From contig NC_087377.1 in NCBI RefSeq assembly GCF_963675165.1, forward strand, positions 6,961,122-7,025,121: 64,000 nucleotides of DNA, given 5' to 3'. Within the stretch, counting starts at the first letter, position 1. Each line of letters begins with the position of its first letter. Made by a program: the position numbers and the translations under genes. The notes beneath the pieces are model-generated. The model did not search any database. It saw only the letters and a program-made list of their open reading frames with translations, and was not told the DNA's origin. This document shows, one piece after another, positions 5,790 to 49,754 of this stretch. The stretch is from Halichondria panicea. Its lineage: Eukaryota > Porifera > Demospongiae > Suberitida > Halichondriidae.

Positions 5790-6050
5790 GTTCACTGAGG
5801 TTTAGTAACGGAAATAGGTCTCCTTCTAATTACAGCACCGCTCTAGTGTTAACATCAACCTCGAAATTTTGGCATCAATCGTTATTAAACACTCACAATC
5901 ATGTCGATCATTTCCCACTATTCGTGTTTCCTAATTAATGCAACAATGTTTATCATTAGTAATGTGTGTAAGATAGCTAGTAGTTTTATGTTATGTAGCT
6001 TCGACACCTCCATCGAGGCGTCAGTACCCGCGGTGCTTTCATTACATGTA
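5790..6050 (+). repeat. Interspersed repeat family A, 3' portion
   Basis: TTTTGGCATCAATCG and the hairpin end near 6020-6045 (CCGCGGTGCTTTCATTA) match the right half of family A. A second short hairpin end lies at about 6140-6172. The remaining bases 5323-5790 and up to 6241 show no exon I can support, so the start of the following gene is not visible. Confidence 0.55.
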
Positions 6051-6241
6051 CAGTGTGTATAATTATTATTATAGCTTCTACGCTCTTGGGCTTGGTGGGT
6101 TTACTGCCAAATTTTACCTTATCAGTCCTATAAACTTTGCATTGAGGCATCAGAACGGGCGGTGCTTTCGTTCCTCAAAGTGTTTTCTGTTTAGAATATA
6201 TATTTTTATTACGTCTGAAATTTACCGATGCAATTTACTAG

Positions 6242-8515
6242 ATCAAGATGCCCACGATGCCGACTCTTATCTGAAAGCAGTGGAAGCCAACAACTGTGAT
6301 GAAAGTAATAGTTACTGTGTAGTGTTAACTTACTCTCTTACACATTTTGTACATCTAGGCACTCAAGCATCCGTACAAGGCAATGAATCGAAAGCTGAGC
6401 CACCAACGCAAGATAAGAAGGATACAGTGGAAACCAACAACTGTGATGAAAGTAATAGTTACTGTGTAGTGTTAACTTACTCTCTTACACATTTTGTACA
6501 TCTAGGCACTCAAGCATCCGTACAAGGCAATGAATCGAAAGCTGAGCCACCAACGCAAGATAAGAAGGATACAGTGGAATCCAACAACTGTGATGAAAGT
6601 AATAGTTACTGTGTAGTGTTAACTTACTCTTTTACACATTTTGTACATCTAGGCACTCAAGCATCCGTACAAGGCAATGAATCGAAAGCTGAGCCACCAA
6701 CGCAAGATAAGAAGGATACAGTGGAAACCAACAACTGTGATGAAAGTAATAGTTACTGTGTAGTGTTAACTTACTCTCTTACACATTTTGTACATCTAGG
6801 CACTCAAGCATCCGTACAAGGCAATGAATCGAAAGCTGAGCCACCAACGCAAGATAAGAAGGATACAGTGGAAACCAACAACTGTGATGAAAGTAATAGT
6901 TACTGTGTAGTGTTAACTTACTCTCTTACACATTTTGTACATCTAGGCACTCAAGCATCCGTACAAGGCAATGAATCGAAAGCTGAGCCACCAACGCAAG
7001 ATAAGAAGGATACAGTGGAAACCAACAACTGTGATGAAAGTAATAGTTACTGTGTAGTGTTAACTTACTCTCTTACACATTTTGTACATCTAGGCACCCA
7101 AGCATCCGTACAAGGCAATGAATCGAAAGCTGAACCACCAACGCAAGATAAGAAGGATACAGTGGAATCCAACAACTGTGATGAAAGTAATAGTTACTGT
7201 GTAGTGTTACTTACTGTCTTACACATTTTGTACATCTAGGCACTCAAGCATCCGTACAAGGCAATGAATCGAAAGCTGAGCCACCAACGCAAGATAAGAA
7301 GGATACAGTGGAAACCAACAACTGTGATGAAAGTAATAGTTACTGTGTAGTGTTAACTTACTCTCTTACACATTTTGTACATCTAGGCACTCAAGCATCC
7401 GTACGAGGCAATGAATCGAAAGTTGTGCCACCAACGCAGAATGATCTTAGTCACCCACAAGTTGTAGGTACGTATAACAATTATAAAAAAATTATGTATG
7501 ATTGCAAGGGAACCATTAAGATTATACTACATGTTAGCCTCGATTTCAGCCGCAAAGAAAATGGTGGCCTGGTATACCTTGTATGCGCATGCGCATACAT
7601 TACCCCAGAAAGGGGGTAATCCGTGGATTTGTGGATACTGTCAGTAAATTAAACCATATACTATTTGTATTCTGAAGTTACAGTCCGTTACATAGAACCA
7701 CTCCTGTGATAGAACTTATTTGGAAGTATTGTGCTAAGATAACTGGGTTCTTAAGCCCTTTATTGTATCAAGCTAAGTATCTACTTAACGACATTCTATA
7801 CTGTAAGGCTACAGATGTTATAGGAAAGGCATGATGTGTTCCTGTGGGTCCCCTGATGAGGCTGTGGTAATATTGACCAGGCAAGTCTTCTGCTACCAAA
7901 TCTTAAGATAAAGAAGCTAATGATCACTCCTGAAAGCTTTTAACTAGACACTCGATCAGGAAGTTATTCACTCAAGATCTACTGATGTATTAAAGATTCC
8001 ACCACTCTTCCTAGCTGGCAGCTCTAGCTATCTGGGAGGCTTTCTTGAACTGTCTCTTTGATAAACAGAACTAGAAGAAGCAACACTGCTGTAGCATAAT
8101 TATTCTACTTTGATTAGTGTCTTTGAAAGTTGCCATTGTGGTTACATTGTCATACATATTCTTCCTTTTTGTAACTTTGTTCGTTTTCAATTTGTATGGT
8201 GAAATTGCTGTCAAGCACAAGGTATACCAGGCCGCCTTTCTCTTTGCGGCTGGAATCGAGGCTAGTATGTGCATGGAGAGCATTATTACTAATTTAGTCT
8301 GCATTGTACAGCAATGTGACATGTGTGTTATTGCCAGAACTGTCCTATTATATTTAGATCCTCTACCAATTGACAAGTCTAATCAGTCGAGTGTGAAAGA
8401 GGGTAAGTATTGTACCAATTTGACCGACAAAATTAGATATTCCTGTGTTCTTCAGGAAATGACGAGAATCAATCAGAAAATGACAAGAATCAATTGAATG
8501 TAACAAAGCTAGGAG
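6242..8515 (+). CDS. Gene fragment built of tandemly duplicated symmetric (phase 1-1) exons
   Basis: I do not recognise the family. Proposed exons: 6242-6304 (63 nt), seven near-identical 93-nt exons at 6359-6451, 6506-6598, 6653-6745, 6800-6892, 6947-7039, 7094-7186 and 7240-7332, a variant 81-nt exon 7387-7467, then 8358-8402 (45 nt) and 8456-8515 (60 nt). Introns between the repeats are 54 nt (53 in one case), start GTAATAG and end CATCTAG. Every exon is phase 1 at both ends, so any number can be added without shifting the frame. The spliced product is about 300 residues of low-complexity hydrophilic sequence rich in D, N, E, Q, K, S and T. Each unit reads TQASVQGNESK, then AEPPTQDKKDTVE, then T/S-NNCDE with one cysteine. 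No start or stop is visible, so the gene continues on at least one side. The single uninterrupted ORF across this array comes from reading the introns through. The 7467-8358 intron holds a MULE-like element. Confidence 0.6.
6280..7440 (+). repeat. 147-bp tandem repeat, about 8 copies
   Basis: The unit repeats at exactly 147 bases (for example CAACTGTGAT at 6291 and 6438), except for one unit that is one base shorter because of a deletion at about 7207. Copies differ by only a few substitutions. The unit corresponds to one 93-nt exon plus one 54-nt intron of the surrounding gene model. Confidence 0.92.
7535..8264. mobile_element. TAGCCTCG-type (MULE-like) non-autonomous element, old copy
   Basis: Starts TAGCCTCGATTTCAGCCGC and ends in the inverted counterpart GCGGCTGGAATCGAGGCTA; the mirrored arms extend to GGCCTGGTATACCTT. 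It carries TGCGCATGCGCA at 7584-7595 just inside the left arm. The arms are imperfect and no clean target duplication remains, so it is older than the copies at 30560 and 45290. It lies within an intron of the tandem-exon gene. ORFs inside are not convincing. Confidence 0.7.
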
Positions 8516-12842: not shown

Positions 12843-13480
12843 AGTAGACTCTCGCTATTCCGGCTCTCTGAAGTATGGCCACATTAATTGATATATCAGC
12901 CATTTAGTTTTTTTTTTTTTTTTTTTTATTTTATTGTTGGCACAAATTGCTAGCTACATGTTTACTGCACAAAACTCGCCCTGAAATGCGTCCACTCGCT
13001 ATTCCGCTATATTGTTCTGGCTGCCCCAATCAGTTTTAATGTACACGTACGTACCATATAATTATTTTTCGAGGGACTAGTTTTTGAGCTCGAAAATCTC
13101 GAAATTGGTTTACTTCCGGTTGAACGACCTCTCTACTGTAGGGGTGTGGTCATTTGAACCTCTGTATATCCTCAAAAATAAAATGCACGAAATGTGAGTA
13201 ATCTGTAAAATGTACTACCTTGAAAATAACCTGCTATACGATAATTATTATACCTTTACTACGGCCAGATTATGACATTTTGGGTGTGGTTTGGCTGGAT
13301 TACACTTAAATAGAGAGCTGATTCATTATCCTTGAGACAGAACCGCAAAATTAGTCATTATAGATTTGAGGTAAGATCGTTTTATAACTGCGGCTATTTT
13401 CTGAAATGTGGCCACCTTACTATTCCCGGCCAAGCTGCATGCACTGTCCCAAGGGCGACCGGATTAACGAGAGTCTATTG
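12843..13480. mobile_element. pogo/Tigger-like MITE with a nested insertion
   Basis: The left end GTAGACTCTCGCTATTCCGG and the right end GGATTAACGAGAGTCTATTG (followed by TA) match the two halves of the complete copy at 24768-25105 read in reverse. About 250-300 extra bases separate the halves (about 13050-13330). A T run lies at about 12908-12927. The right half is also present at the start of the second duplicon, ending at 18161. Confidence 0.6.
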
Positions 13481-13778
13481 TATATGGCATGCGCGCTTGT
13501 TTCAATCAGTGTATCAATGAACATGTATGTAATATGAATGCATTAACAGAAACAACACACATGCGCTTCCTAAACATTGTTGTACACAGCTCTTTGTAAT
13601 CATCCTCTCTCCTTTGTTTACAGTCTATTTATACACTCCCAGCATAATTATAAATACCGCAGTCGCATCCCGCATTACAATCCCGTTATACAATATAAGT
13701 CATAACAGTAAATTTGACAACGGAGGTAAGCAAAGAGACTAATTACGGATTGCTAGCCTGAGTCTGATCCAATTCAAA

Positions 13779-14402
13779 ATGGACCATAATGAAGGTATGA
13801 AACTAGCCAGACTGTATCCTCCTGCACGTTGCATATATATAGTTACTGTGTACAATTAACAGCACACATGCACCATTATGTGAACACAATGTCATGCAGA
13901 TGTGAGCAATGCAGCTAACCTTTGGTGGCTAATTCTGCCTTTTGAAATGGTCGGAATTGTAACTCTGATCCTCACCTTGTTTTTTCTCCATTTTTACCAC
14001 TTGAGGATAAGAAAAAAGATTGCAAAGATACGAGAAACTCTAGATGAGCTAGCCAGTGTGGAGCAAAATGCAGCTTATGGGTTAGTATGGAGACCGCAAC
14101 AAAGATCAGCTTTACACACAAGCTCACTGTACGAAACAATTCCAGAGCATCCAGGCACTGTCAGCCGTCAGTCTATCAACCACACACTGTGTGCACCTGA
14201 TTCCGAAGCAACAGATGTTGAGTATGACTACATCGATAATCTAAAGTTCTCAGTACATGCTTCTAACCTAGAAGACCTTTCTTTTGAGCACAATCAATCA
14301 TTTGCTGCTGTAACTGACAGCCACAGAAGGGGTGCAGTGCAAAACCTACAAGATTCAGGTCCTCTGTATGTTAACGTTGAGGTTACAGTACACTCACAAT
14401 AG
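13779..14402 (+). CDS. Short single-pass membrane protein with ITIM/YxN tyrosine motifs (transmembrane-adaptor-like), copy 1
   Basis: Exon 1 is 13779-13794 (16 nt, ATG at 13779) and exon 2 is 13900-14402. The GT-AG intron is phase 1 and the product is 172 residues. The N-terminus MDHNEDVSN is only about ten residues with no signal peptide. A single membrane span follows, roughly residues 12-37 (WWLILPFEMVGIVTLILTLF), then a basic stop-transfer stretch RIRKKIAKIRE. The tail contains SLYETI and VEYDYI, both matching the ITIM pattern S/I/V/L-x-Y-x-x-I/V/L, and LYVNV near the C-terminus, a Y-x-N site of the kind bound by the Grb2 SH2 domain. A tiny ectodomain, one span and a tyrosine-rich tail is the layout of vertebrate transmembrane adaptors such as LAT or PAG. 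Homology is not claimed, only similar architecture. The start is supported by the same 16-nt first exon in all three family members. Confidence 0.8.
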
Positions 14403-14616
14403 TTAATGATAGAACGGATGTCAACACACGTGCACCATTGTAAACATTGTAACCACAACTTTCAATATAATAATTTGTTGTAATGTAGTAATTTATGTTA
14501 ACTTCAATTTAATAGAATCCATGCATGCACGCATACAAGATTATATGGTTGATGACATGGTAGTATGGTACGTACATAAAGATTATGAGCACATGCATGC
14601 ATGTGCACCATATAGT

Positions 14617-14783
14617 TATACCCCAGAGGAGGTTGGATAGGCGCGGTGCAGCTCAGGTAATTAGCCTTCGATTGAACAATAATTATCTGCCCACGCCCCG
14701 CCCACATCGTATGTTTTTGCTGAGAGTAATCAGAGGCTAATTGCTTGAGCTGCACCGCGCCTGTCGGACCTCCTCTGGTTATA
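14617..14783. repeat. MITE with CCAGAGGAGGT-type inverted ends, copy 1
   Basis: Left arm TATACCCCAGAGGAGGT... to GCGCGGTGCAGCTCA is mirrored by TGAGCTGCACCGCGC... to ACCTCCTCTGGTTATA. The arms are about 38 bases with a few mismatches. It lies just downstream of the small membrane-protein gene, and the duplicated counterpart is at 19502-19646. No coding content. Confidence 0.8.
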
Positions 14784-15697
14784 CCCATTGAGAGATACAT
14801 GCATGCATGCAATGAGAGTCAGCAATATAGTAGTTTCGCCAACTGCATGGTTAGGGCTTGGCAAATTATGCTAGCATGCTTTTTGGGAGACTTCTAGCAA
14901 CGAGAATAATAGGGCACTAAATTAGAATGATTTGATCCTCAGAGTCCGGTAGACCTAATTTCACATCTTATAGATACGACATCTATTACAATAGATCTGT
15001 ACTGTAAGCACTATAGCTAGCCACTAGGCAGGCATGGAGAAGTATTTCTCTTTTGGCACTAGAGGATTATATTTCTTTCTGTAATGCTAGGTATATATTT
15101 GCCTCGGTCCCGGGCTGATTTTTTTTAATGGAACAAAGTTGAAAAACACTAAAATAATGTAGCTAGACACAACAAGGCTACCTCAGGTAGTGCTATCAAT
15201 ACAACTACAAATAAAATTGTCTATTCTTTAAATTGGAACCATGCATGGTACACCAAACTGGAATAATAGGCTGACTTTTTGATAAGCAAAATAAAAAGCA
15301 TAATTTGCCAAGGCCTATATATGCATGGTATAATTATGCTTATAAGCAGGAGTATATAGTATGAAAGCGACTGACAAATGCTATTAAGTTAAAATGGAAG
15401 CTCCATTCAAAGATCATCTCAATCTAGGACACTAATTCTTACAACAAGCAAGAGACATCAAACTATTCTGAATCTGAAAATAAAAATACATTAACAGAGT
15501 TCACAGGCTGGTGCTAAAATACATTGTAGTAACTGCTTTGTAAACATTATAGTTCACTATAATTATACGTACACTTCAGTTGCAGGAGGTACTATAACAA
15601 TTGTGTGTGATTATCTTGTGACGATCAAAGCAAGCAAAGAGATACTACAGACTAAAATAATTATTACATGTATAGCCAATCACAAAATAGACCACAT

Positions 15698-16469
15698 AAA
15701 CATTTATCACTTGCCCCATGGCGCTTGCGTCACCCTAGTAGTTGGGGCGAGCGAAGCGAGTCCCTTAGTTAGTCATGCACGTGGTCCGGGTGGTGTATGT
15801 ATGTATGTCCACCGTGGACCGGCAGGCCGGCACATGGACCGGCATACGATATTTGCTTTTGTGACTCGTGATCCTTTACCAATTTCTACGTGAGTCAATA
15901 ACTTTAGCTCGATAAAGATATGAATAGCGACAAAACTAGCGATAAGGAGGATCCTCAGAAACAGCTAAAAAGAGGGAAAGGAGGCTTGCTAGACCCAGAG
16001 AAAGATACAGGGCACACAGGAGCAGCAGGAAGTGAAGGTAACTGACTCAAACGGTTCTGCAGGTGTTTGCCTAATTATTTATATAACATAAAAAATTTTT
16101 GTGTAGAATGTGCATAAGCCAGCAGAAAGTTGCCAACCATTTTTAAATGTTCATTACACTAATACAGAGACTCCAGAGGCCACACAGGCACGCTTGAAGC
16201 AATACATGCATGCAGGCAGAGGCATATACAGAGTGAATCCCGATATGCCTCTATTCAAACAATCTGCTGTTCAATCCAAGATGCTGTTTACATTGTTGTA
16301 TATTTGCAGTCATGCCAATAATGTCCATCTATCGACTACCACTTGGACAATATGAATACGCAAGCCTTGTCATCAACCTGCCACAAGATGTGGTGTCATT
16401 TGCACAATATCTAGCTTTCAGCAGAGTTGGATGCGTCACTTGCCCCATGGCGCTTGCGTCACCCTAGTT
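15698..16469 (+). pseudogene. Possible broken gene fragment between 32-bp direct repeats
   Basis: A candidate first exon 15920-16037 encodes MNSDKTSDKEDPQKQ and more (39 residues) with a phase-1 GT donor. A candidate exon at 16107-16309 and another at 16310-16435 (reading LPLGQYEYASLVINLPQ) have acceptor-like AG sites, but their frames do not join: the phase-1 junction gives an immediate stop. I do not recognise the product. The segment is flanked by an identical 32-base direct repeat (15708-15739 and 16437-16468), containing CCCCATGGCGCTTGCGTCAC. It could be a decayed gene captured in a mobile unit. Low confidence. Confidence 0.3.
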
Positions 16470-17950
16470 ATTATACCTTCATTACGGCCAGATTATGACA
16501 TTTTGAGTGCTCAGACAAAGCTAATTGTAACCCACTGCCTTTCACTATAATTATGGTTGTGTTCTATGGTTTCCGCCAAGGAGTGGCTTCAAAATTAATG
16601 TTGCATGGAATAACTAATAATTATACCTACTATATATAAAGGGTAAAAGAAATAGCTTCTACAAATCTAATTACTATTTCTGTGATGGATATACAAGAAC
16701 ATGAAATCGTATGAACATCCGACTAGAAAAACATTACTAAAATAAAAAATACCATCATTTCGAAGTTAAATGCATGCATATTATAGGTTTTCGATATATG
16801 TAATTAGTTTCTGTTGTCTAGGCTATATACTGTATTGTGTATTGTATTGTGTGCATACATTGCAAATACTGACGGCCGAATGGTTCACATTACACGGAAT
16901 TGCCCATGCTACAGTACACGAGCTTAATACACTCCATAGCATCAGAGCACATCGTGGTACAGATAACAATGATCCGAGTAAATTTGAATTCAAAATTTCA
17001 TGGAAAATGCTAACAATTACTATACTAGTACTATGGTCCACAGACTGGCACAAAAATTGTGGCTTAAGGTTTCTTTGGACCACCTTATAATGATCACTAC
17101 CTATCTTATAAAGTTTCTTATAATGATTACTACCTATCATAAATATGTTTTAATTATCGGCATGAAATAACGGAGTGTACATGTATAAAAGCTATACATA
17201 CGTACAGTACATGTACGTGCTAATGCATGGGTAAACGTTAGTCTTGGTAAATACTCAATGTCATCCCAGTATAAAATTGTAGACATACGTGCTAGTACCA
17301 CAAAAACAAAACATGCATTCACTCTTAACATAGGGGGGGTATGATAAACACACAATAACAAAACACAATCCAAACCGCTAAGTGCTTGCTAACATCTTTC
17401 ATTGTACGTATAAATGACATATAGCGGGTACTTTTCGGGGGGAAATATACATGGTTCAGCAATAATATTATTATTTAGACATTTCGTGGATAATATTTTC
17501 GTGGTTGCTGATTGCACTGCAGGTAAAGGTAGTTAAGGTCGCTTCATCCATGCATGGGTAAATATTCGTGTGGCCAGAGCTTCAACCACAAATATTAAGA
17601 TCAGTGCCATAATAAAGTGCCTTATCATTGTGAGATGGCATCATCAATGCATGTTTTTGCTCTTGAATTATATCTTATACGTTGAATATGATAACATCGT
17701 TGCCATGTTTACTGACATGTTGCATTTATTTTAAACAACTCTTTTGAGAATGCAGCCTCTAATACACAATTTTATGACCTCATCTTAGTATCAAAAGAAA
17801 GCTCTTACTATAGTACAGTAGGAACTATGTGTATTTAAGCTGCTTTCATATATTTGGTACAGTATATATGCATATATGAATGAGTTGTATACAGTACACT
17901 TCATTCAATTTAATACTGTTTTTGCTTAAAATCTGCCTTAACCTATACCC
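16469..17950. other. Intergenic stretch without supported genes
   Basis: Contains CCGACTAGAAAAACATT near 16720, the same opening as the 118-bp inverted repeats at 54517/55075, so a fragment of that family may be here. A TATAGCGGGTA hairpin-type repeat lies near 17421. ORFs at 16770-17373 overlap on both strands without domains and are left out. Confidence 0.5.
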
Positions 17951-18469
17951 GAGTGTGGTTTGGCTGTATTACACTTAAATAGAGAGCATGATTCATTGTC
18001 CTCGAGACAGAACCGCTAAATTAGTCATTAGATTCGAGGTAAGGTCGTTTTATAACCGCGGCTATATATTTTCTGAAATGTGGCCACCTCGCTATATAAT
18101 TCCCGGCCAAGCTGCATGCACTAGCTGTCCCAAGGGTGGCCGGATTAACGAGAGTCTACTGTATAGCATGCTGCATGGTTTCAATCAGTGTATCAATGAA
18201 TATGTATGTAATATGAATGCATTCATAACAGAAACAACACACATGCGCTTCCTAAACATTGTTGTACACAGCTCTTTGTAATCATCCTCTCTCCTTTGTT
18301 TACAGTCTATTTATACACTCCCAGCATAATTATAAATACCGCAGTCGCATCCTGCATTACAATCCGTTATACAACTATATATATTACAAGTCATAACAGT
18401 AAATTTGACAACGGAGGTAAGCAAAGAGACTAATTACGGATTGCTAGCCTGAGTCTGATCCAATTCAAA

Positions 18470-19261
18470 ATGGACCACAATGAAGGTATGAAACTAGCCA
18501 GACTGTATCCTCCTGCACGCTGCATATAATTTTATGTATTTACTGTGTACAATTAACAGCACACATGCACCATTATGTGAACACAATGTCATGCAGATGT
18601 GAGCAATGCAACTAACCTTTGGTGGTTAATTCTGCCTTTTGAAATGGTCGGAATTGTAACTCTGACCCTCACCTTGTTTTTTCTCCATTTTTACCACTTG
18701 AGGATAAGAAAAAAGATCGCAAGGATACGAGAAACTCTAGATGAGCTAGCCAGTGTGGAGCAAAATGCAGCTTATGGGATACGAGAAACTCTAGATAAGC
18801 TAGCCAGTGTGGAGCAAAATGCAGCTTATGGGATACGAGAAACTCTAGATGAGCTAGCCAGTGTGGAACAAAATGCAGCTTATGGGATACGAGAAACTCT
18901 AGATGAGCTAGCCAGTGTGGAGCAAAATGCAGCTTATGGGTTAGTATGGAGACCGCAACAAAGATCAGCTTTACACACAAGCTCACTGTACGAAACAATT
19001 CCAGAGCATCCAGGCACTGTCAGCCGTCAGTCTATCAACCACACCCTGTGTGCACCTGATTCTGAAGCAACAGATGTTGAGTATGACTACATCGATAATC
19101 TAAAGTTCCCAGTACATGCTTCTAACTTAGAAGACCTTTCTTTTGAGCACAATCAATCATTTGCTGCTGTAACTGACAGCCACAGAAGGGGTGCAGTGCA
19201 AAACCTACAAGATTCAGGTCCTCTGTATGTTAACGTTGAGGTTACAGTACACTCACAATAG
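18470..19261 (+). CDS. Short single-pass membrane protein with ITIM/YxN motifs, copy 2, with expanded 18-residue repeat
   Basis: Exon 1 is 18470-18485 (16 nt) and exon 2 is 18597-19261, joined in phase 1. The product is 226 residues and nearly identical to the protein at 13779-14402. The difference is four tandem copies of the cytoplasmic juxtamembrane unit IRETLDELASVEQNAAYG (one copy has DKL for DEL), encoded by 54-bp repeats from about 18726 to 18940. Each unit ends in AAYG, so the expansion adds tyrosines, and the sequence looks helical or coiled-coil prone. The tail keeps SLYETI, VEYDYI and LYVNV. Its role is inferred as for copy 1: a membrane adaptor or co-receptor phosphorylated on tyrosine. 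Only a few residues differ elsewhere, such as NAT for NAA, TLTL for LILTL and FPV for FSV. Confidence 0.82.
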
Positions 19262-19501
19262 AACGAGATTTAATGATAGAACGGATGTCAACGCATGTGC
19301 ACCATTGTAAACATTGTATATAGACCACAACTTTCAATATTTGTTGTAATGTAGTGATTAATTATTTTAACCTCAATTTAATAGAATCCATGCATGCACG
19401 CACAGAAGCATAAAATTATATGGTTGATGACATGGTAGTATAATGATGGTACGTACATAAATATTATGATTATGAGCACATTCATGTGTGCACCGTACAG
19501 T

Positions 19502-19646
19502 TATACCCCAGAGGAGGTATGACAGGCACGGTGCAGCTCAAGCAATTAGCCTTTGATTATCCACCCACGTCGTATGTTTTTGCCTGATGTAATCAGAGGC
19601 TAATTACTTGAGCTGCACCGCGCTTGTCGGACCTCCTCTGGTTATA
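19502..19646. repeat. MITE with CCAGAGGAGGT-type inverted ends, copy 2
   Basis: Duplicated counterpart of 14617-14783, slightly shortened inside (the ATAATTATCTGCCC part is missing). Outer ends TATACCCCAGAGGAGGT and ACCTCCTCTGGTTATA are retained. Confidence 0.8.
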
Positions 19647-19974
19647 CCCATTGAGAGATATATATGCATGCAATGAGAGTTGGCAATAGTATAGTTCTGC
19701 CACAGGCTTGGCAATTTATGCAAGCATAATTTTTGGGAGACTTCTAGATTCTATACTATTGCCGACTCTCATTGCATGCAACGAGAATAATGGGCACTAA
19801 ATTAGCATAATTTGACCCTCAAGAGTCTGGTAGACCTAATTTCACATCTTATAATGTAGCTATAGATAGACATCTATTACAATAGATCTGTACTGTAAGA
19901 ACTATATTATTTATAGCCACTAGGCAGGCATGCATGTATTTTCTCTTTCGGCACTAGAAGATTATATATGTAAT

Positions 19975-20241
19975 TGTAACAAAGCCGAGCGGTATGCCTT
20001 GTATTCGGAACGTAATCACAATAGAATGACCTTCAACATTTAATTGCAACCCACTGTATAACCAAAATACACCTGCTTATATACCAACCTATGTATCTAA
20101 CAAATAAAAGTACAAGAAACAACTAGAAAATCCCTGAGTCTATTGAGAACAATCTAGAATAAATAAGAACAGTCTGGAACTAATGATCCAAAGAGTTGTC
20201 CAATTATGTTATCAATAGTCCATAGTACAAAGTACATCACA
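19975..20241 (-). repeat. 3' LTR of the Ty3-type element
   Basis: 267 bp, bounded by TG and CA, preceded on the - strand by the polypurine tract. It differs from the other LTR by a small number of substitutions and short indels (for example around 20096-20180), so the insertion is not brand new. Confidence 0.88.
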
Positions 20242-20398
20242 TTCCTCCTTCCTTAGATGGAGGAGTACGAGTCGCCACATCGACTTCGTTCACCGACATC
20301 ACAACTGGTAGGGGGTAACCCTTCAGTGTCATCTTCACGTTCTAACTCTGCTGAAAGTGCCGTCGCATAATTGGCTGGACTTGGGTTCCACTTCTTCA

Positions 20399-21577
20399 TC
20401 ATGTTGATATGGTAGACTTGGTTTCCTGTCTCCTTCCGGGTGTTTGAATCTCATAATCGACATCTGTCACTTTCCGAGTGACTTTGTATGGGCCTCTCCA
20501 TTCAAGCTTGAGTTTGTTGGTTTGCATTGGTAGAAGGACAAGGACTTCGCCACCTTGTTCTACACTTCTGAGTCTAGCTCCACTGTCGTAGTATCTCTTC
20601 TGTCTTTCTTGTGCCTGCTTGAGGTTGTCTTGAGCTAGCTTAGCCATCTCACTGAGCCTGTTTCTCATTGTAACTACATGAGTAATCGCCGGTACTTCTT
20701 CAGCTTTTTCGTCAGTCCATCCTTCGCGCAGAATGTCAAGTGGCCCACGGACTCTGTGGCCATACAGCATCTCAAAGGGTGAGAACCCAGTCGATTCTTG
20801 AGGAGCCTCGCGATAAGCAAACAGGAGGTATGGCAAATATTCGTCCCAGTCTGTTGCGTTTCGGTTAGTGAACTTCTTCAGCATGCTCTTTAATGTGCCA
20901 TTAAATCGCTCAACCAGGCCGTCTGTCTGGGGGTGGTATGGTGTTGTCCTAATTCTTTGAATCTGTAATACCCGATAGACCTCTTCCAGTAGAGCAGACA
21001 TGAAGTTTGGCCCCTGGTCAGTGAGAACTTCCTCAGGTACTCCTACTCTTGTAAACAGTAACATCAGCTCACGAGCTATTCGGGGTGCTTTTGTACTTGA
21101 TAGCGGGATCGCCTCAGGATATCGTGTGGCATAGTCACAAATGGTGAGAATAAATCTGTTGCCACGCTTGCTTCTGGGTAAGGGTCCAATCAGGTCCATT
21201 GCTATTCTTTGAAATGGTATTTTTACCAGCGGCATAGGGATCAGGGGTGCTCGAACAGGTTTTCTTGTTTGGGCTCGTTGGCATACCTCATATGTCCTGC
21301 AGTACTGAGTCACATCCTTGAAGACACCTGGCCAGAAGTACCGTTGAATCACCCGGTCAGTTGTCTTCTTGATGCCAAGGTGGCCATGCAGCCATGGGCA
21401 TGTCATGGGCAATCTGCAGTACTGGCTGTCGGCACTGTTGGGGTAGTACCAGCTGCTCACATGCCTTGGGCCCATCCTCTCTACCGTCTGGAGGGTGCCA
21501 ATGTCTGTAGAGGAGGCCTTCTTCCCAGTAGTAATAACTGTTTCCATTGGGTCTTTTGTCAGCAAGTCTCCTGGCAT
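20399..21577 (-). pseudogene. Ty3-type integrase with a frameshift before the HHCC region
   Basis: Contains HLGIKKT, YFWPG and CRTYEVC (zinc-binding N-terminal region). It then has the catalytic core with MDLIGPLP (first Asp), LTDQGPNF (second Asp) and GLVERFNG (Glu), and a C-terminal WRGPYKV (GPY/F-type) segment. The integrase inserts element cDNA into chromosomes. Residues that should precede HGHLG (YYYWEEGLLYRHW...) lie in another frame at about 21430-21590, so there is a frameshift near 21395-21420. Truncation at the C-terminus is possible. Confidence 0.85.
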
Positions 21578-21580
21578 CAG

Positions 21581-22330
21581 CTAGGGTGGGTCACTCAGTT
21601 GCCAGCTCTTGATCTCCTCAGGGGTTGCTTGTAGTGCAGTGTCAGCTTCAAGCACCTGTCCCTCCTCCTTCCTTGGCTCGTCATTCTTAGGGTGCTCTGG
21701 GTTTCTTGGTTGCTTGGGTTCTGACTGCCCCCTGGCATACAGTTTCCTGGCCTTTCTCTTTTCTGACCTCGTCATTCGGCTCTTTCCTTTCACTTGCAGG
21801 AATAGATCATCGGTAAACTCTGCACCGACGTTGCTTCCTTCTGAGGGATCTGCTTCTCCAGACTCCTCCGTCTGCTTCTCTTGAAGTTCACGACATCGTT
21901 TCATTGCTCTTGTCTCTGCCAAGAGTCCAATCTCAGTCTCCATTGTCCCATCTCCAAATGTATCCTTTCCGAGGAGAACTGCTACTGGTAGATCAGGAGC
22001 AACTGCCACTCTCATCTCTTTCTTCCAGTTTCCAATCTGCAGCTCAACCTTGGCTGTGGGGAACCAACACTATCCCCATGCACACAACGAACAGAGACTT
22101 TCTCTTGTGCGTTTACTCTATCTGCCTCTACAAAATCCGACCTCACCATTGTCAATGTACAGCCTGTGTCCACCAGCATCCGTACTGGCCTGCCTTGGAG
22201 TGTTCCGCTGCGAACAAATTTGTCACTCTCCAGATTCCAGGCGATTTCCGTACAAGTTCCCGCATACAAATTCGACTTCTCAGCTCCACTCTGCTTCAGC
22301 GGCTTCCGATTGGGGCAGTTAAACATCAGG
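21581..22330 (-). pseudogene. Aspartic protease and linker of the Ty3-type element
   Basis: The LVDTGCTLTMV motif (protease active site) lies in the 22012-22326 ORF, just after the zinc knuckle. A change of frame near 22012-22015 leads to the hydrophilic linker (MTRSEKRKARKLYARGQ), which then runs straight into integrase. The protease would process the Gag-Pol product. No RT motif such as Y-x-D-D is present between protease and integrase. Confidence 0.78.
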
Positions 22331-22989
22331 TGGCCCCACTGTCTACAATGAAAGCACTGCCTGTCTCCGCTGGTATTAGTTCTTGTCCTCTCGCTCGTCC
22401 ACTTCTTATAGCTAGAGGCCTTGGGGTAGGTGATAGATTGTCAGTTGGTCTCACTCTGGGGAGTCCCTGGTGCAATTACCTTCTGGTTTCTGGCAGTCAT
22501 ATAGTCATCTGCAAACTGAGCTGCTTGCTTTAGCGATTCGGGCTTCTTCTCCTTGATCCAGATCGCCAGGTCTTCAGGTACACACTGCAAAAACTGCTCT
22601 AGGATCATTAGCTCCTCAACTGACATCACAGCATCTTTAGTCCAACGGTCAAAGTAGTCTCTAAGTCGGCCACTCTATCCTAGGTATGTTTCACCATCCT
22701 TCTTTCGATCCTGGCGGAACCGTCTTCGGTGAGTCTCCTCGTTGACTTCATATCTCTGGAAGATGGCTCGCTTCACACTATCGTAGTCAGCGGCTTCTTC
22801 TGCCCTCAGGGAGGCGTATGCTGCCTGCGCCTTCCCAGTCAAAAGTCCGGCAAGCTGTATTGCCCACAACTCTCTTGGCCACTCTTGCTGAGTAGCGATC
22901 CTCTCAAACGTACTTACAAAGTCCTCAATATCATCACTGTCAGCAAGCTTCTGAAGGGTTGGCTTGGGAATCTTGGGCCTAGTTGGCAT
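22316..22989 (-). pseudogene. Ty3-type gag with SCAN-like helical region and CCHC knuckle
   Basis: Reads from MPTRPKIPKP through WAIQLAGLLTGKAQAAY and YDSVKRAIFQRYEV, is broken by an in-frame stop at 22675-22677, and resumes with MILEQFLQCVPEDLAIWIKE. The latter strongly resembles the SCAN fold, which has been traced to Gmr1-like gag. A CX2CX4HX4C knuckle (CFHCRQWGHLMFNC) lies at about 22316-22360. Gag packages the element RNA in particles. Confidence 0.78.
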
Positions 22990-23317
22990 CTCCTCTCACC
23001 GCCTTCTCATCTCTTCCAGCTCTCTTCGATAGGTCTCCGTTTCTTCCTGTTGGTTTTGCAGGAGGGTCTCCATAGTCTTTTGTTGCGCCTCCTGTTGCTG
23101 TTGAAAAAACTCTTGTTGCTGCCTAAGCAGACTCTGCAGTAGCTCCGTCTATTGAGCTTGCTGCGCTGGTGTTGCCTCAGACTCAGACATCTCCCGACCT
23201 GGTCGTTTGTATGTTGTGCCTTGTCGAGTGGTACTGGTCATTCGGTGCCTGTTGCTTGTTCCTGGCGATGGACTGTCGGTATTCTTGCGACGATTGGATC
23301 CCACCGCTGCCACCAAA

Positions 23318-23571
23318 TGTAACAAAGCCGAGCGGTATGCCTTGTATTTGGAACGTAATCACAATAGAATTACCTTCAACATTTAATTGCAACCCACTGT
23401 ATAACAAAAACACACCTGCTTATATACCAACCTAAGTATCTAGAATGATCTAGAACAAATAAAAGAACAAGAAACAACTAGAAAATCCCTGAGTCTATTG
23501 AGAACAATCTAGAACCAATGATCCAAAGAGTTGTCCAGTTATCAATAGTCCATAGTACAAAGTACATCACA
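23318..23571 (-). repeat. 5' LTR of the Ty3-type element
   Basis: 254 bp, matching 19975-20241 end to end apart from a few indels. It is followed on the - strand by the primer-binding-like sequence TGGTGGCAGCGGTGG at about 23301-23317. Confidence 0.88.
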
Positions 23572-24212
23572 GTAATGCTAGGTATATATTAGCCTCGGTC
23601 ACGGGCGATTTTTTTTAATAGAACGAAGTTGAAATGTAGCTAGAGACAACAAGGCTGGCTACCCAGGTAGTGCTGTCAATACAGCTACAAATAAATTGTC
23701 TACTCATTGATGTTGGAATAATGGTACACCAAACAGGCTGACTTTTTGAAAATAATAATAGGCAAAATGAAAAGCATAATTTTCCAAGGCCTATGCATGG
23801 TATAATAATTATGCTTATAAGCAGGAGTAGATCTATATAATATGAAAACAACTGACAAATGCTATTAATTTTTAAGTTAAAATGGAAGCTCCATTCAATT
23901 AAGATTGTCTCAATCTAGGACACTAATTCAAGCAAACTATTCTGAATCTGAAAATGAAAATACATTAACAGAGTTCACAGGCTGGTGCTAAAATACATTG
24001 TAGTAGCTGCTTTGTATAGTAATGTCTCAATAATTTTGTTTATACATTGTATAGTAGCTGCTTTGTAATCATGACTCAATAACTTTGTTTATAGTTCACT
24101 ACAGTCATACGTACACTTCAGGAGGTACTATAACAATTGTGTGTGGTTATCTTGTGACGATCAAGGCAAGCAAAGAGATACTGTATAGCCAATCACAAAA
24201 TAGACCACATGA

Positions 24213-24767
24213 AGGTACAATGTGATTTTATTTACCCTATATAATTATACAGTGTTTATCTGTATATATACACCTTGGTTCCATGCAGAGGCAGGCCGAA
24301 TAATCGAATGGATAAACCATGCATGCATGTGGTGCTAACTCTGTGCCCAAGGACCCCTGTTTGGCTTGCTTATGCTTTGCAGCAGCTTCTTTGTATGAAG
24401 CGTTTACCATGCGTAATGTATGCGTAATGATTATTCAAATGCGTTGAGCAACGTGCAATTCTTTGCTGCTTCCAAATCCATCACCTATAACTATCTGATT
24501 GGTCAAGACGGAGTGCTCAGACGGTTTTTCTAAAAGAAGGGCGGCTGATTCTGACTAGCCTTGATCCGCTCACTTATTATTGATAAACAGCAGTGCAAAT
24601 TTAGTGCATGTGGGTCATGATAGATGTCTGCGCATGTGCACGCGTACAACAAACATGCCTGTAACCATGAAACAGCAGTAAATTACGCATGTGCATTAAT
24701 GGCCATGCCCATTTTCAGAGAAAATTTCCAAGCCGAATAATCGAGGTTCTACTGTAATTATGTTATA
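24213..24767. other. Intergenic stretch with a repeat end
   Basis: Contains a CGAGGTTCTACTGTA terminus at about 24742-24756, the right end of another pogo-like copy whose left end I could not find. No gene is supported. Confidence 0.45.
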
Positions 24768-25105
24768 CAGTAGACTTTCGTTAATCCGGTCATGCACCCT
24801 TGGGACAGTGCAGCTTGACCGAAATAGCGAGTTGGCCGCTTTTCAGAAAATAGCCGCGGCTAAAAAACGCGATCTTACCCTCAAATCTAATTACTAAGTT
24901 TGCAGTTCTGAATAATTATGCTCTCCAGACATATCCGGCCGTATAAATAATTACATTAAAAACCTGTAGTTTGGGGCAGCCAGTACTGGCCAGTATACAG
25001 AATAGCAAGTGGCCGCATTTCAGGGTGAGTTTTGTACAGTAAACATCTAGCTATAGCAATCCCTGCCAAAGCAAATGGCCGGAATATCGAGGCGAGAGTC
25101 TATTG
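24768..25105. mobile_element. pogo/Tigger-like MITE, 338 bp, TA target duplication
   Basis: Starts CAGTAGACTTTCGTTAATCC and ends GGCGAGAGTCTATTG with TA on both sides (24766-24767, 25106-25107). Halves of this element recur at 12843-13480 and 17990-18161. It is non-coding. Confidence 0.75.
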
Positions 25106-25796
25106 TATACACAGTGCAACAGACTTATTGCTGATCATGTGACCTATACAGCCAATGAGATTCCTAAAATGCATTCATGTGTGACTATATACTTTTATGT
25201 AACATATGCACTTAGCTAGTGTTACAATGCTGGTGCACTCGGATGATGCAACAATGATCTTAATTGGTTGAGTAATTTAATGCACACGCTATGCTCCTAT
25301 GCTTGTACATTAAGATCATTAGCATGCATGAAAACTTGATCAATAGTCGACACAACTTCATTTGATATTCATAATAATTATGTTGTCAATAATTATACTC
25401 AATAGAATCTAAGGAAGTGGAAAGTTTACGTGTGCATAATTGAGTCTCTGTGATCCTCCCTCCGACAAAGGAACACCTGATTAAGGGATGCTGTAAATAA
25501 AAGGACAACACTAATCATCTTCCACTTCTTGAATGTCCAGAACATTTCCAAGAAGGAAATTGCATCATTTTCACTTATCTAGATATAAACACAGCGTGGC
25601 ACAGCTGGGAATAAGCTATATACACAACATATTATCTCTGATACCCGGACCTCAACCATAATTATGAAGTATATAGTAAGTTTGCCGACGTAAATGAAAT
25701 AGTTTATGCATGGGAATTAGTGCCCTATATGGAATACTTCTATCAGACGTATAAAGATTATACAAAGAGTATAATTATAGAGCAAGGTAGCGGAGG

Positions 25797-26285
25797 ATGG
25801 AGCATGACAAAGGTATTATAATTGTACAAGTTCCTGACTTAACAGTGTCTCTTGTTACAGATGTGAACTACTACTGGGCTATTCTTTTTGTGGTACTATA
25901 TATAGTGGGAATTATACTAGCAATTGGCATACTACTTTCTTTGCATTTTTGTCATCGGAGGATCAGAATGAAAGGCGAAACGCTAAGACGAACACTACGG
26001 GAGCTTCACAGAGGGCAAAAGAATGAAACTGGACAGATATTTCCTTCACAAGAAAGTTTACTGCATGAAGTGATTTCAGAGCAGCAGTTCGTCAATGTTA
26101 CAAGTGCAGTTGCTGAGAATGAAGACGATGAATACGAGTACATTGATGATATTGCACTTGATGGTGAACAGTTTGTTTTTGAAAACAATCAGTGCTACAA
26201 GACAGTAAACAGGCCGAGAGACGCTAATCAACAAAGGAATGTACACGATCCATCATATGTGAATGTTGGAGTAACAGTGCACTAA
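25797..26285 (+). CDS. Short single-pass membrane protein with tyrosine motifs, divergent third family member
   Basis: Exon 1 is 25797-25812 (16 nt) and exon 2 is 25861-26285, phase 1, 146 residues after splicing. The 48-nt intron is a multiple of three and open, so unspliced RNA also keeps frame and makes a 162-residue form with an N-terminal insertion. N-terminus MEHDKDVNYYW, then a membrane span (about residues 11-34, AILFVVLYIVGIILAIGILL). A juxtamembrane Cys (LHFCHRR) is a possible palmitoylation site, followed by basic residues. Tail motifs are YEYIDDI within an acidic patch, CYKTV and SYVNVGVTV at the end. The match to the two copies at 13.8 and 18.5 kb is mainly in exon layout, membrane topology and the YEYID and YVNVxVTV blocks, so the family is old but the 13.8/18.5 kb pair is recent. 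Confidence 0.8.
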   Translation: MEHDKGIIIVQVPDLTVSLVTDVNYYWAILFVVLYIVGIILAIGILLSLHFCHRRIRMKGETLRRTLRELHRGQKNETGQIFPSQESLLHEVISEQQFVNVTSAVAENEDDEYEYIDDIALDGEQFVFENNQCYKTVNRPRDANQQRNVHDPSYVNVGVTVH

Positions 26286-27352: not shown

Positions 27353-28707
27353 ATGAGCAGAATAAAGAGTCTGATGCTGATTTTGTCAATATCACTACTA
27401 AACAATGGTAAGTATATTTTGTATAGTATAAGCAACAAGTAAAACAATTGCCTATAACAGACCAAGGTTATAATTATATAGTGGTAATATAATAGCTCTA
27501 ATAATTTATACCTATTAGATATGCATGGATCCGTTTAGTCACTTTAATATAGTACTCTGTTATTCAGCAATTGCCCAAGGAGCTGCAAACAGCACAAACG
27601 TAACCACAGACTCAACTTCTGCAATGAACTTGACAGTAACTACATCAAGTAAGTTCACACGATCACACACCACCTATAATTATAGAGCATTACAAGTGCT
27701 AGACTAAGTATGAAGTGTACATAATTATAATTATGGGGAGGATTAGCAGCTATAGTCTCTGAGGGCCGTTAGACATTTAAAGTGAAAGTAGCAACACAGG
27801 TCTTTATCACATTTATCTCACATCCGTTCAGCAGTGTGCTTTACTAAATTTTGATATTTTCACAGCTGACTTTCAAGTTGATGATGATGGCACCCATCCC
27901 ACATACGTTTATGTTCTTATAAGCTTTGGAGTGATAGCGCTACTTGTTCTCATAACTGTCCTAGTTGTTTTAACTCTCTACTGGGCAAAACGCTCAAGAA
28001 TATGCAAGAAAAACCAAACACTTACTCAAGTTGAAATTGAAAGTGCAGATATATCCCAGGACCACCTCGATGTATCATCTGGTTACGATGATATCCTCTC
28101 TGTTTCTGAGGTAATGAGAAAGAAACGTGTGAGTGACGAAGAAAGTAATAATGTCAAGTTGAATGAAGACATACCCACGAGTTGCAATGAGGCTTACGGT
28201 GTAGCGGGAGTGTGCAAAACACAAAATATTAATACTGTAGAGAACACAGAACAAAGCGAATGTGTCTATGCAATTATTGATGACAGTTCTCCACATGAGA
28301 GTAATAACACTCTCAATGGCTTTGGAAGCAGGCAGGAAGATAACAGAAGTCACGCAAACACGAAAGATAATACTCCTAATTATGAAAACATTACACCTAT
28401 AAATGACCACAGTGCAGAAGGTGATGACGATGAGCCAGACTATGAGAATTTGGTGTCTCCAGATCATGTTTTTGGAGATTACGCAGTACCTGAGTTTGAT
28501 TTAACTTCAAGTTCAGCAAAAGTTCAGAACAGTTTCAATAATGTTGAATACTCAAAGCTGAGAGGGTATCCAGAGTCTGGAAGCAGGATGAAGTCTTCGA
28601 GATCAATGCCACACATTCTCGAAGAGGTGAAACCTGTACAGAACAAGCAAAACAAGGGTTGTAAAAAGTCACACAGTTTCAAAATCACTGACCCAATGCA
28701 CAGTTGA
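27353..28707 (+). CDS. Type I single-pass membrane protein with multi-tyrosine cytoplasmic tail
   Basis: Exons 27353-27407, 27568-27648 and 27866-28707, all joined in phase 1; 325 residues. The first exon encodes a signal peptide (MSRIKSLMLILSISLLNN). The mature ectodomain is only about 40 residues, Thr/Ser-rich with N-glycosylation sequons NST, NVT and NLT, and has no folded domain I can see. A membrane span follows (VLISFGVIALLVLITVLVVL), then KRSRICKK. The ~220-residue tail carries GYDDI, EAYGV, VYAII, NYENI, DYENL, DYAVP and VEYSKL. VEYSKL fits the ITIM consensus exactly, and YENI/YENL fit Y-x-N Grb2-type sites. YENI and YENL are 16 residues apart between motif cores, longer than a standard ITAM. 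It is probably a scaffold or co-receptor for SH2 proteins, next to genes with similar tails. I do not recognise a named orthologue. Confidence 0.8.
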
Positions 28708-31086: not shown

Positions 31087-34000
31087 ATGATAGACAAGAG
31101 TTTGACAATGTTGACATCTTTCACTTTTCTTTTTATGGCAGGGTCATTCATCATAGCTGTAACAGGTAAGACTGTTATGTTACATTGGTAGTAAATACTG
31201 CTGCATACAAAGTAATGTTGCCACAATGGAATTTACTATTCTACATGTAGATCGTATACTGAGTTTCGAGTGCCTAATTAGACAATTGCGAACGACATTG
31301 TATAAGCCTGGATACTATTGGGAATTCCACGTGAAGCATGCTAATTGTATGCTCCTTGCGAGTCAGATCACTCTTTCATTTGCAACCGCTCTAGATAACT
31401 ATATATGCAGCCAGAGATTGTGACTCATAATTATAGCCCAACATGTGATGCTCCTCTGCATGAGTACCACCACTATTGGCACACTTTTGGATCCATTTAC
31501 AGTTAGTTTCTGCTAGGGTACGTGTGAGAGCCTATTATACTGAATTATTATCTCCCCAGAATCTCTGTACACAAATCTGAACAAATAAATTGTGTGCTAC
31601 CAAATTACTGGTGTGCATTGTATAAATTACCAATAAACTGCTGAACTACAATAGACCAGTTGCACCTAAGGCATGAGGAATTTAATTTACCGTGACATCA
31701 CGGTTGGCCTGCTCCGGAAAATTCACTTTACTGGCAAATCAATGTAAAAATTCTGCATGCGCTTTGACCAGAGTTCATTGCATCGTAAAGATCTGTTTAT
31801 CTATATAAACAACGTCCAGCTAGAGAGTAATAATTTCTACTGCATGTGGAGTTTGAAGTAGCTCTAGAAAGCAAGTTAAACTGGAGATATAAGCGGAATG
31901 AGCTAAATTCTGGAGTAAAGAGATGCCTGGCAAGACCTGCTGCCTCCGTTTATAAGATGGGTCCCCAGATCTCTTTGTACTGCTTCTCAGAGAAGAGTAG
32001 AAAGTAGTTGGAAGTGTTAGAACGTCCAAGATTCGACTGGGTAGGTTTCTTGCATCACCAGAAGAAAGTGTCTTTAAAGACTCTCATAGATGGTTTTACT
32101 TCATGTTCTTGAAGTTCTAACACTTCCAACCACTCTATTACATGACTGTATTATTTTGTTGCTAATTTAGACAGTGATGTCTGATTGACCTGACTTATAA
32201 TAATGATTATAGTCTTGATTTAGTACAGTAACCCATAACGATGTCCTTCCAATATTTTCTCACAGCTCAGTTCACAGTACAGCCATTGTCAGTGGAGAGA
32301 GCCGAGGGACTGGAGGCAGTGTTCAGGTGTCAGTATCAAGCCGAGGGAGTGATTGTTACTTATGATTGGGCAATAAACCATTCCTTAGTCTTAACAGATA
32401 CAGAAACTATTCGAGTACGTCGACTTTCGTCTCCTGGACCAACTACACTGACAATCTTGACCACTCCACAGCACAACAACTCTGATATTCAGTGTCAGGC
32501 TACAATCAGAAATGGCATTATTATTGTAAGGTATGAAGTATCGACTACAGCAACTCTAACTGTTCATGGTGAGTTAGTAACTATCTGTGCATAAGGTTGT
32601 ATAGGCATTTCCCTGTAGGAACGGTAATCACTAATGTTCTGTCTGCTCCAAACACCATTACCGTTACATGGAATGCTCTACCCTTCACTAACTACTGTGT
32701 GGACGTCAACAGGACAACTCTTGACTTAACTGAAACAGTTGTTCTTGATTCTCTGTGTGGATTCACTAATGAGTACATCTTCATGTACTCTGATAACAGT
32801 GTGTGTGCCAGATTCACTGTGACTCCTATTGATGGAGAGATGAGGGGAACAACCAGTGAATTATGTACTGGGTTATTTACGAGAGTAGAAGGTGGGTTTA
32901 TACCATAATAGTAGTATTACACTTCTATAATATTATGCAGGTAGTAGAGAACAACATCGTATTCTTGAAACTAAAAGGAATAAATTAGTCAAATTTAGGG
33001 CAACTGTGAGTGATTCGATTTTAGTTGTTCGTTTTGTTGTTAAGAATGCATTAATTTTTAGTTTGTTTGAGTTCTCTCATAAAATTCTAGGTTCCAAGTT
33101 GTACAAGGTTCACTCGGTATCGTGTGGACTCTGACCTATTGACTCCCTCCATCAACCTTCCAATCACGGACCCTCTTCTGTTTGATGGCACACTCAGTTT
33201 CTCCCTCCCCACTGACAAGATGACAGAATACAGTGTCACACTGACTGATGAGAATGGAATAGATCTCGTGTTTGAGAACATTCCAATCAGTGAGTTCAAT
33301 AGTACGTGTTCATTTGCTAATTATTTGATCCCCAGGTACTTTTGACGTTCAAGACCTCCTAGTGTCTGAATGTCCTGGTGGTGGTGGTATTTGTGTGAGC
33401 ATTGTGTATGTTGAAGGTACCCTCTCTTCCGGAGCTCTCGTCTGTGCAGTACGTAACATTGATGGAGTGTTTGATTTTGCTAACATGAAACTGGTTTCCA
33501 TCCCTCGGAATTCTATTGAGAATTTCACCATTCCTGTTTCTAGTGGAGAATACCGAGTGATTGCTTTTGATCTGGAGAGCAACGATTTACCAAACATGCC
33601 CATCTCTATGGTAGCACTCAGTCAAGACATTATGAAAGTGAACGCTAGTGTTGAAGGTACGTGCTCTATGTGTTATTGCTGTGCTATAATTATAGTCATT
33701 TATCATAGACATTTCCAGTCCACCACCAAGAGAGGGCATTAGTGCATCCAATTTAACGAATGGAGATGTTAGTGTGACCTGCTCCAACTCTGCCCTGAAT
33801 TGTCTAGTCTTGTTTCAATCCACCACCATCTTTGACAGAGTGATTGTCGGTTTCATTAACTCTTCTGAAGCCTCAACTGTCCTCTCTTTGAATGACACCT
33901 TTGGTGATGGTTATGTGGTGGTGTACTCTTGGAATAATTCACAGTCCATCTTTGAAGGGGAGGTATCGCTCATTATACAACTGGATCTACTCACCAGTAA

Positions 34001-41560: not shown

Positions 41561-41812
41561 AATCCAGGAAATACAGACTACCACATGGCAGTCTGTAATC
41601 GGTGGACTAGACTACTGGACTGGACTGGAATGTGGAATGACCTTTTAACCTTCTGCACATGCGCAGTATATATTTGCCATGTGCCAAACCTTAGTACAGA
41701 GGTTTTCAGGTTGGTTGACTATAGTGACTGTGAAATAAATAGAGCATGTGCAATAGCTATAGACTCTGCCCAGCTACTTCAATCAATAAACTCACGAAAT
41801 TCAAAAACTAAG

Positions 41813-49681: not shown

Positions 49682-49754
49682 GTAAAGTGTGGCTAGCAAT
49701 AACCTCCTTCTGTCGTGTTCCTTGCTATACAATTATGCTTAAAACATTTTACAG

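Follow-up and report, generated by a model that had tools for sequence, protein, structure and literature searches.

The genes studied here lie in a 64,000 nt stretch of the genome of the sponge Halichondria panicea (NC_087377.1, positions 6,961,122 to 7,025,121, forward strand), referred to below as the window. Three of its genes, A (13779-14402), B (18470-19261) and C (25797-26285), encode small membrane proteins with tyrosine motifs in a cytoplasmic tail, and are accompanied by a fourth gene, D, and by immunoglobulin (Ig)-like receptor genes (Table 1). A first-pass annotation had described A, B and C as LAT/PAG-like transmembrane adaptors with a short first coding exon, an ectodomain of about ten residues, one membrane span and the tail motifs YxYID and YVNVxVTV.

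Structure, copies and topology of the adaptor genes

Re-reading of the sequence affirmed the annotated gene structures. Each gene has a 16 nt first coding exon followed by a phase-1 intron with GT..AG ends (105 nt in A, 111 nt in B, 48 nt in C), and the encoded proteins comprise 172, 226 and 146 aa, respectively. The intron of C is open and in frame, and C is the only one of the three that can be read unspliced; splicing of C is nevertheless supported because the matching introns of two relatives, L002 and L003, carry in-frame stops and have to be removed. All three proteins have a short N-terminus (about 15 residues before the span in A, 12 in C), one strong hydrophobic span, the motif EY[DE]YID and a C-terminal YVNVxVTV.

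Searching all 39 contigs of the genome (131 Mb) with one protein at a time, which yields lower bounds, revealed at least six copies, namely A, B, C, L001, L002 and L003, and the 16 nt first coding exon was read in all six. A further match on contig C13 with an E value of 0.998 was taken as chance and dropped. A and B arose by tandem duplication (13284-15072 aligned to 17953-19967 in two pieces) and their proteins are 98% identical when the extra 54-bp units of B are set aside. Thus, they do not constitute independent evidence, and the informative contrast is that between the two subgroups into which the intact genes fall, subgroup I (A, B) and subgroup II (C, L002, L003), with about 41% protein identity between C and A.

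The intact adaptor genes are under purifying selection. The ratio of nonsynonymous to synonymous substitution rates (dN/dS) was 0.187 for A/B, a pair with 6 synonymous and 4 nonsynonymous differences, 0.329 for C/L002, 0.438 for C/L003 and 0.502 for L002/L003. Between the subgroups, whose dS of about 2 is saturated, it ranged from 0.22 to 0.27. A and B diverge by 4.9% upstream, 2.9% in the intron, 3.9% in one part of exon 2 and 1.2% in the other, and 11.3% downstream, which is compatible with constraint on the tail in a pair too close to say more. The dN/dS values of 0.19-0.50, together with an own exon 1 and, in A, B and L001, an own TATA box, speak against the view that these are receptor genes cut short or duplicates in decay that have no function of their own. 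Such decay might be suspected from the broken frame of L001, one of the six copies, and from the duplication-rich region in which the genes lie, but genome searches with adaptor proteins and with receptor tails list none of each other's places, and we regard this explanation as very improbable.

The best 19-residue Kyte-Doolittle window scored 2.33 in A, 2.06 in B and 3.22 in C, compared to 0.24, 0.24 and 0.65 for the next best, and it far exceeded the next one in all five intact proteins. In A, C, L002 and L003, the four proteins examined for charge, an acidic N-terminus precedes the span and 6-7 K/R fall within the 20 residues after it. Judged by hydropathy and charge alone, the predicted topology is a short extracellular part, a single span and a cytoplasmic tail. 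An AlphaFold2 run on gene A exon 2 with four relatives (alignment 5 deep) reached a mean predicted local distance difference test score (pLDDT) of only 50.7, rendered the span as a helix (block means 84-94 across the core), and gave a pLDDT below 50 for residues 59-167 of exon 2. The tail is therefore predicted to be disordered after the membrane helix, and no folded tail domain was predicted for gene A exon 2 from this five-sequence alignment.

An ectodomain encoded by an upstream exon, which the first-pass annotation had named among the observations that would overturn its reading, left no sign in the 300 nt before the ATG. A TATAAATA box precedes the ATG of A (Table 1), B (18331, 139 nt before the ATG) and L001 (134 nt before the ATG), and gaps in this upstream region are mostly not multiples of 3 (10 of 10 in A/L001, 7 of 9 in B/L001). 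Both the position of the box and the frame-breaking gaps speak against a hidden ectodomain exon. Only three gaps separate A from B upstream, one of them not a multiple of 3, and this comparison counts against the gap test. Ahead of the ATG, A and B share a donor-like GAGGTAAGC that L001 does not retain, and this candidate for an upstream exon was rejected.

Table 1. Positions of the adaptor genes, gene D, the receptor exons and the adaptor copies elsewhere in the genome. Window positions unless a contig is given.
Feature	Position	Strand	Remarks
TATAAATA box, gene A	13649-13656	+	130 nt upstream of ATG
Gene A coding exon 1	13779-13794	+	16 nt, phase-1 donor GTATGA
Gene A exon 2	13900-14402	+	membrane span and tail; stop 14400-14402
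Gene A predicted membrane span	13929-13985	+	residues 16-34; hydropathy, AlphaFold helix
Gene A EYDYID	14220-14237	+	inside one of the two best-conserved tail windows
Gene A C-terminal YVNVEVTV	14367-14390	+	YxN
Gene B coding exon 1	18470-18485	+	
Gene B exon 2	18597-19261	+	
Gene B four tandem 54-bp units	18723-18940	+	each encodes ..SVEQNAAYG; single unit in A
Gene B EYDYID	19079-19096	+	
Gene B C-terminal YVNVEVTV	19226-19249	+	
Gene C coding exon 1	25797-25812	+	
Gene C exon 2	25861-26285	+	
Gene C EYEYID	26130-26147	+	
Gene C C-terminal YVNVGVTV	26256-26279	+	YENV / YENA in the C6 copies
Gene D exon 1	27353-27407	+	signal-peptide-like start MSRIKSLMLILSISLLNN, read by eye
Gene D exon 2	27568-27648	+	short Thr/Ser/Asn-rich ectodomain
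Gene D exon 3	27866-28707	+	membrane span and tail with YDDI, YAII, YENI, YENL, YAVP, YSKL
R1 Ig-like exon	32232-32591	+	sub-threshold Pfam matches (Ig_3, I-set); aligned with R4 exon
R1 tail exon	34431-34697	+	ends YVNVN
R2	37032-39396	+	Ig-like exon at 37032-37406, tail matches at 39167-39396; putative joining, based on order and strand
R3	52736-57340	-	exon 57011-57340 aligned with Ig-like exons, no Pfam match; tail in two frames; putative joining
R4	58203-60724	-	Ig-fold exon 60374-60724; tail ends YVNIN; putative joining
L001	C1:9645171-9645672		frame-broken; keeps 16 nt exon 1 and both tyrosine motifs
L002	C6:1003488-1003910		intact two-exon gene, same 16 nt first exon as C
L003	C6:1043489-1043908		intact two-exon gene, same 16 nt first exon as C

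Conserved tail motifs and their candidate readers

Tails were compared in an alignment of A, C, L002 and L003, from which B was omitted as a near-copy of A and L001 as broken. Invariant positions make up 40 of the 110 ungapped columns and include three of the four aligned tyrosine columns. The best-conserved 9-residue windows were YVNVEVTVH and DVEYDYIDN with its one-residue shift, each with six of nine columns invariant. Hence, although each tail contains 4-5 tyrosines, two motifs are invariant across both subgroups. The C-terminal sites read YVNV, YVNV, YENV and YENA; constancy of Y and N(+2) combined with variation at +1 (V/E) and +3 (V/A) is a pattern compatible with Grb2.

Candidate readers of such motifs are encoded in the same genome, in which the SH2 family gave 74 matches; 16 loci were fetched. 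One of them, L018, contains Grb2 exons with two SH2 halves, one including KYFLWVVKF, and flanking SH3-like reads (by eye). The second half had GRB2 as its best PDB match (8.7e-24); for the first half the list was topped by SHP2 with its two SH2 domains summed (36.6 and 33.4 bits), while GRB2 reached 64.3 bits in one stretch. The Grb2 SH2 of L018 keeps the specificity Trp, which we take to be the basis of the pYxN preference. Furthermore, L004 encodes a Src-family SH2 that matched Src-family kinases (FRK 1.2e-36, Src 3.9e-32), and the SH2 of L012 looks SHP-like by eye. Grb2 has also been reported in Amphimedon and choanoflagellates (PMC7260276).

The sponge-type character ascribed to the genome from the window alone was borne out by a silicatein search. 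Among its 66 match rows, many of which are doubtless cathepsins, L064 (GDCGASYAF, also carrying SSLNHAMVITGYG) and L065 (QCGSSYAF) have Ser in place of the catalytic Cys. This active site we regard as diagnostic of silicatein, which indicates the genome of a siliceous sponge.

The same tyrosine motifs could be read in two other ways. SIT and PAG dampen receptors in vertebrates, and proteins of this topology might likewise dampen the receptors by sequestering Grb2 or kinases or by recruiting a phosphatase. In subgroup I, VEYDYI and SLYETI fit the consensus of the immunoreceptor tyrosine-based inhibitory motif (ITIM; S/I/V/L-x-Y-x-x-I/V/L), and L012 would offer an SHP-like partner. However, subgroup II has D/N at -2 (DDEYEYI, DNEYDYI), so that the ITIM reading is not conserved, and YETI is replaced by HEVI in C and L002 and by YEVI in L003; an inhibitory role appears rather unlikely to us. 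Alternatively, the tyrosines might serve trafficking as YxxPhi sorting signals instead of phosphosites, since YDYI/YEYI and YVNV/YENV fit that motif. Against this, L003 has YENA without a bulky +3 residue and still keeps N at +2, and the conserved acidic context of EY[DE]YID would favour a kinase substrate. We consider a sorting function distinctly unlikely.

Relationship to known transmembrane adaptors

The vertebrate transmembrane adaptor proteins (TRAPs) LAT, NTAL, PAG/Cbp, LIME, LAX, SIT and TRIM combine a short extracellular part, one span and a tail with several tyrosine-based motifs including YxN, features that PMC2803307 describes together with the Grb2 sites of LAT; vertebrate LAT is also covered in PMC10079008. 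Hydropathy, charge and the AlphaFold helix place the sponge proteins in the same topology, and several tyrosine-based motifs are found in their tails. TRAP tails are in addition Src/Syk substrates that bind SH2 proteins, and the sponge genome has a Grb2 gene and a Src-family SH2. The sponge proteins have no detectable sequence relationship to these adaptors, their intact copies lack CxxC, and a cluster of Ig-like receptors adjoins them.

Pfam scans of the adaptor proteins gave no LAT/PAG-type match, and none to NTAL, LIME, LAX, SIT or TRIM, with whose profiles no genome search was made. Over the whole genome, neither the LAT nor the PAG profile reached its cut-off of 27 bits: LAT (PF15234) scored best on C12, at 17.4 bits (E 0.197), and PAG (PF15347) on C13, at 16.1 bits (E 0.314). 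Both places lie away from the adaptors, and in such searches long models may miss weak matches. The juxtamembrane CxxC palmitoylation site of LAT, PAG, NTAL and LIME is absent from A and B; C has one Cys, L002 and L003 have C-x3-C, and CxxC occurs only in the frame-broken L001. A PDB profile search with the adaptor alignment yielded a best E of 0.015 to a protein that is not an adaptor, and among 155 IMG/VR stretches fitting a pattern no viral relative was confirmed. In a literature search of limited coverage we found no publication on a sponge transmembrane adaptor, and none on invertebrate ones turned up.

These results bear on descent from a common animal ancestor of LAT/PAG/SIT-type adaptors, which might be suggested by the shared topology, by the LAT-like contexts YVNV and YENV, and by the CLHC of L001 at the membrane edge, with the spacing of LAT Cys26/Cys29 (PMC2803307). 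It is opposed by the failure of the profile searches, by the intact copies lacking CxxC and by amphioxus, for which PMC5431462 reports no LAT-like molecule, and we hold such descent to be extremely unlikely. The LAT/PAG-like character assigned to the genes thus stands for topology and for motif conservation across two subgroups; a LAT/PAG relationship is not supported. Early-animal adaptors or a convergent version had been left side by side, and the convergent version is the more likely one, because the LAT/PAG profile searches fail and amphioxus is reported without a LAT-like molecule. The sponge adaptors probably evolved separately from those of vertebrates.

DAP12 and FcR-gamma chains also have a minimal ectodomain and a tyrosine tail, and Glu in the span of A, B and L001 (LPFEMVGI) raises the question whether the sponge proteins are signalling subunits of this kind that pair with a receptor through a charged membrane residue. 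Yet the spans of C, L002 and L003 contain no acidic residue, a basic core residue is missing from each of the four receptor spans read in the window (Lys at the outer edge in R1 and R3), and the ITAM spacing, YxxL/I-x6-12-YxxL/I (ITAM, immunoreceptor tyrosine-based activation motif), was not seen by eye. We therefore consider a DAP12-like subunit very unlikely, and works-like-a-transmembrane-adaptor remains the favoured description.

The Ig-like receptor cluster and a model of adaptor function

The receptor cluster and gene D were absent from the first-pass annotation. Searching the genome with the R1 tail exon produced 81 match rows which, merged at 600 bases, gave 49 places on C1 at 6.9-7.75 Mb and 19 on C1 at 3.4-3.7 Mb. 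Outside these two groups there were a single further place on C1, two places on C2, and a weak match on C6 and another on C14; the counts refer to tail exons, not whole genes. A, B, C and D sit near one end of the larger group of about 49 places. Judged from their order and strand, the Ig-like and tail exons probably belong to one receptor gene. Structure prediction for the Ig-like exon of R4, which was aligned with its counterparts in R1-R3, gave an Ig fold (mean pLDDT 84.4), and Foldseek returned 523 matches at E ≤0.001, topped by Ig domains (NCAM, TCR and others), with PD-1 also high. Among the exons of R1, R3 and R4 scanned with Pfam, Ig models stayed under cut-off for R1 and R4 and R3 had no match, and a PDB sequence search with the Ig-like exon was weak, with mostly Ig domains. 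With one exon modelled and three relatives aligned, the locus resembles the Alr complex of Hydractinia, a cluster of Ig-superfamily membrane receptors for which PMC11999971, a source that also covers sponge Ig adhesion molecules, cites 41 members. A possible difference is the presence of adaptor genes within the sponge cluster, which is known here from the sequence of one genome.

Gene D (27353-28707) has three exons, one span and eight tail tyrosines with two YxN sites (YENI, YENL). Its signal-peptide-like start, ectodomain of about 35-40 residues, single span and multi-tyrosine tail are like those of the non-raft TRAPs SIT and LAX, but it has no Pfam match over cut-off (third exon scanned only). 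Partial matches to D occur within the same receptor cluster, and the sole copy read, L066, is interrupted. A D fragment with stops adjoins L002 on C6, so that a C-like sequence lies next to a D-like one at two sites.

Further open frames were noted around these genes. One at 2263-2823 (+) resembles another cytoplasmic tail (YDVV, YETV, PPPLPPP, PPAY) and has no Pfam match; another at 5977-7616 (+) consists of tandem repeats of about 48 residues (NNCDESNSYCVVLTYSLTHFVHLGTQASVQGNESKAEPPTQDKKDTVE). Leucine-rich-repeat-like frames (by eye) lie upstream of the adaptor copy on C6 at L003 4532-6189 (-). Retroelement- or transposase-like frames (by eye) at 20402-22995 (-), 40221-41606 (-), 41555-43067 (+) and 48170-49764 (+) are consistent with a duplication-rich region.

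With a probability we put slightly above even, the adaptors are single-pass N-out/C-in docking proteins that work in a TRAP-like manner and arose separately in the sponge lineage. In favour are the six copies, the purifying selection, the conserved tyrosine motifs, the predicted disordered tail, the Grb2 gene and Src-family SH2 of the genome, and the two YxN sites of the nearby gene D. Several observations weigh against this interpretation. The 4-5 tail tyrosines compare with nine in LAT (PMC2803307). Tyrosine was not significantly enriched among the invariant columns (Fisher p 0.14), and one YxN per tail was within chance by shuffling (p 0.24 for A, 0.29 for C, 0.35 for L002, 0.39 for L003, 0.17 for D and 0.30 for R1; 0.18 for A, D and R1 combined). 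The receptor tails, of which 40 were fetched, cut both ways. A terminal YxN in 19 of 20 supports the adaptor reading, but these 20 had been selected because their match ran to the C-terminus (L039 has YVD). None of the 20 chosen with a shorter match (9 tails of the 7-Mb cluster and 11 of the 3.4-Mb group) has it in the tail frame, although a different frame of L041 and of L046 does encode it. Terminal YVN is thus typical of many, not all, receptors around the adaptors, and absent in the 11 tails fetched from the 3.4-Mb group. Moreover, half of the six adaptor copies are located away from the receptor cluster, and the linkage of adaptors, receptors and gene D could be coincidental. Since shuffled tails often hold one YxN, the case for adaptors rests on conservation and context, not on enrichment. 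The pattern TAYGTNAAYGTN was uninformative by itself (702 and 710 matches genome-wide against 2221 and 2264 in the reversed control); its matches pointed to further YVNV sites close to the window.

We infer phosphorylation, SH2 binding, receptor coupling and a downstream pathway for the adaptors as follows. Having no ligand-binding ectodomain, they would act as substrates. Ig-like receptors with tail tyrosines are the likeliest upstream partners because the adaptors lie beside them; a neighbouring receptor would activate a Src-family kinase, which may then phosphorylate the disordered adaptor tail. The conserved EY[DE]YID, whose pY-[DE]-x-I resembles the Src-family SH2 preference, would hold the kinase or another SH2 protein, and the C-terminal pYxN could recruit Grb2 and thereby lead to Sos/Ras.

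What makes this result most interesting is that the adaptors are linked with the Ig-receptor cluster and with gene D. The use of separate transmembrane adaptors is characteristic of lymphocyte signalling in vertebrates. We suggest tentatively, and well short of an even chance, that dozens of Ig-fold receptors, the ectodomain-less A, B and C and the short-ectodomain D form a linked complex converging on a Grb2-type YxN output. Such a complex would combine receptors with adaptors much as lymphocytes do, as an independent invention at the base of animals that possibly serves sponge allorecognition or immunity. If the sponge does use ectodomain-less tyrosine adaptors beside an Ig cluster, the split between receptor and adaptor would have evolved repeatedly or at a much earlier stage than previously assumed, and the C1 region would be a concrete candidate for sponge self/non-self recognition.

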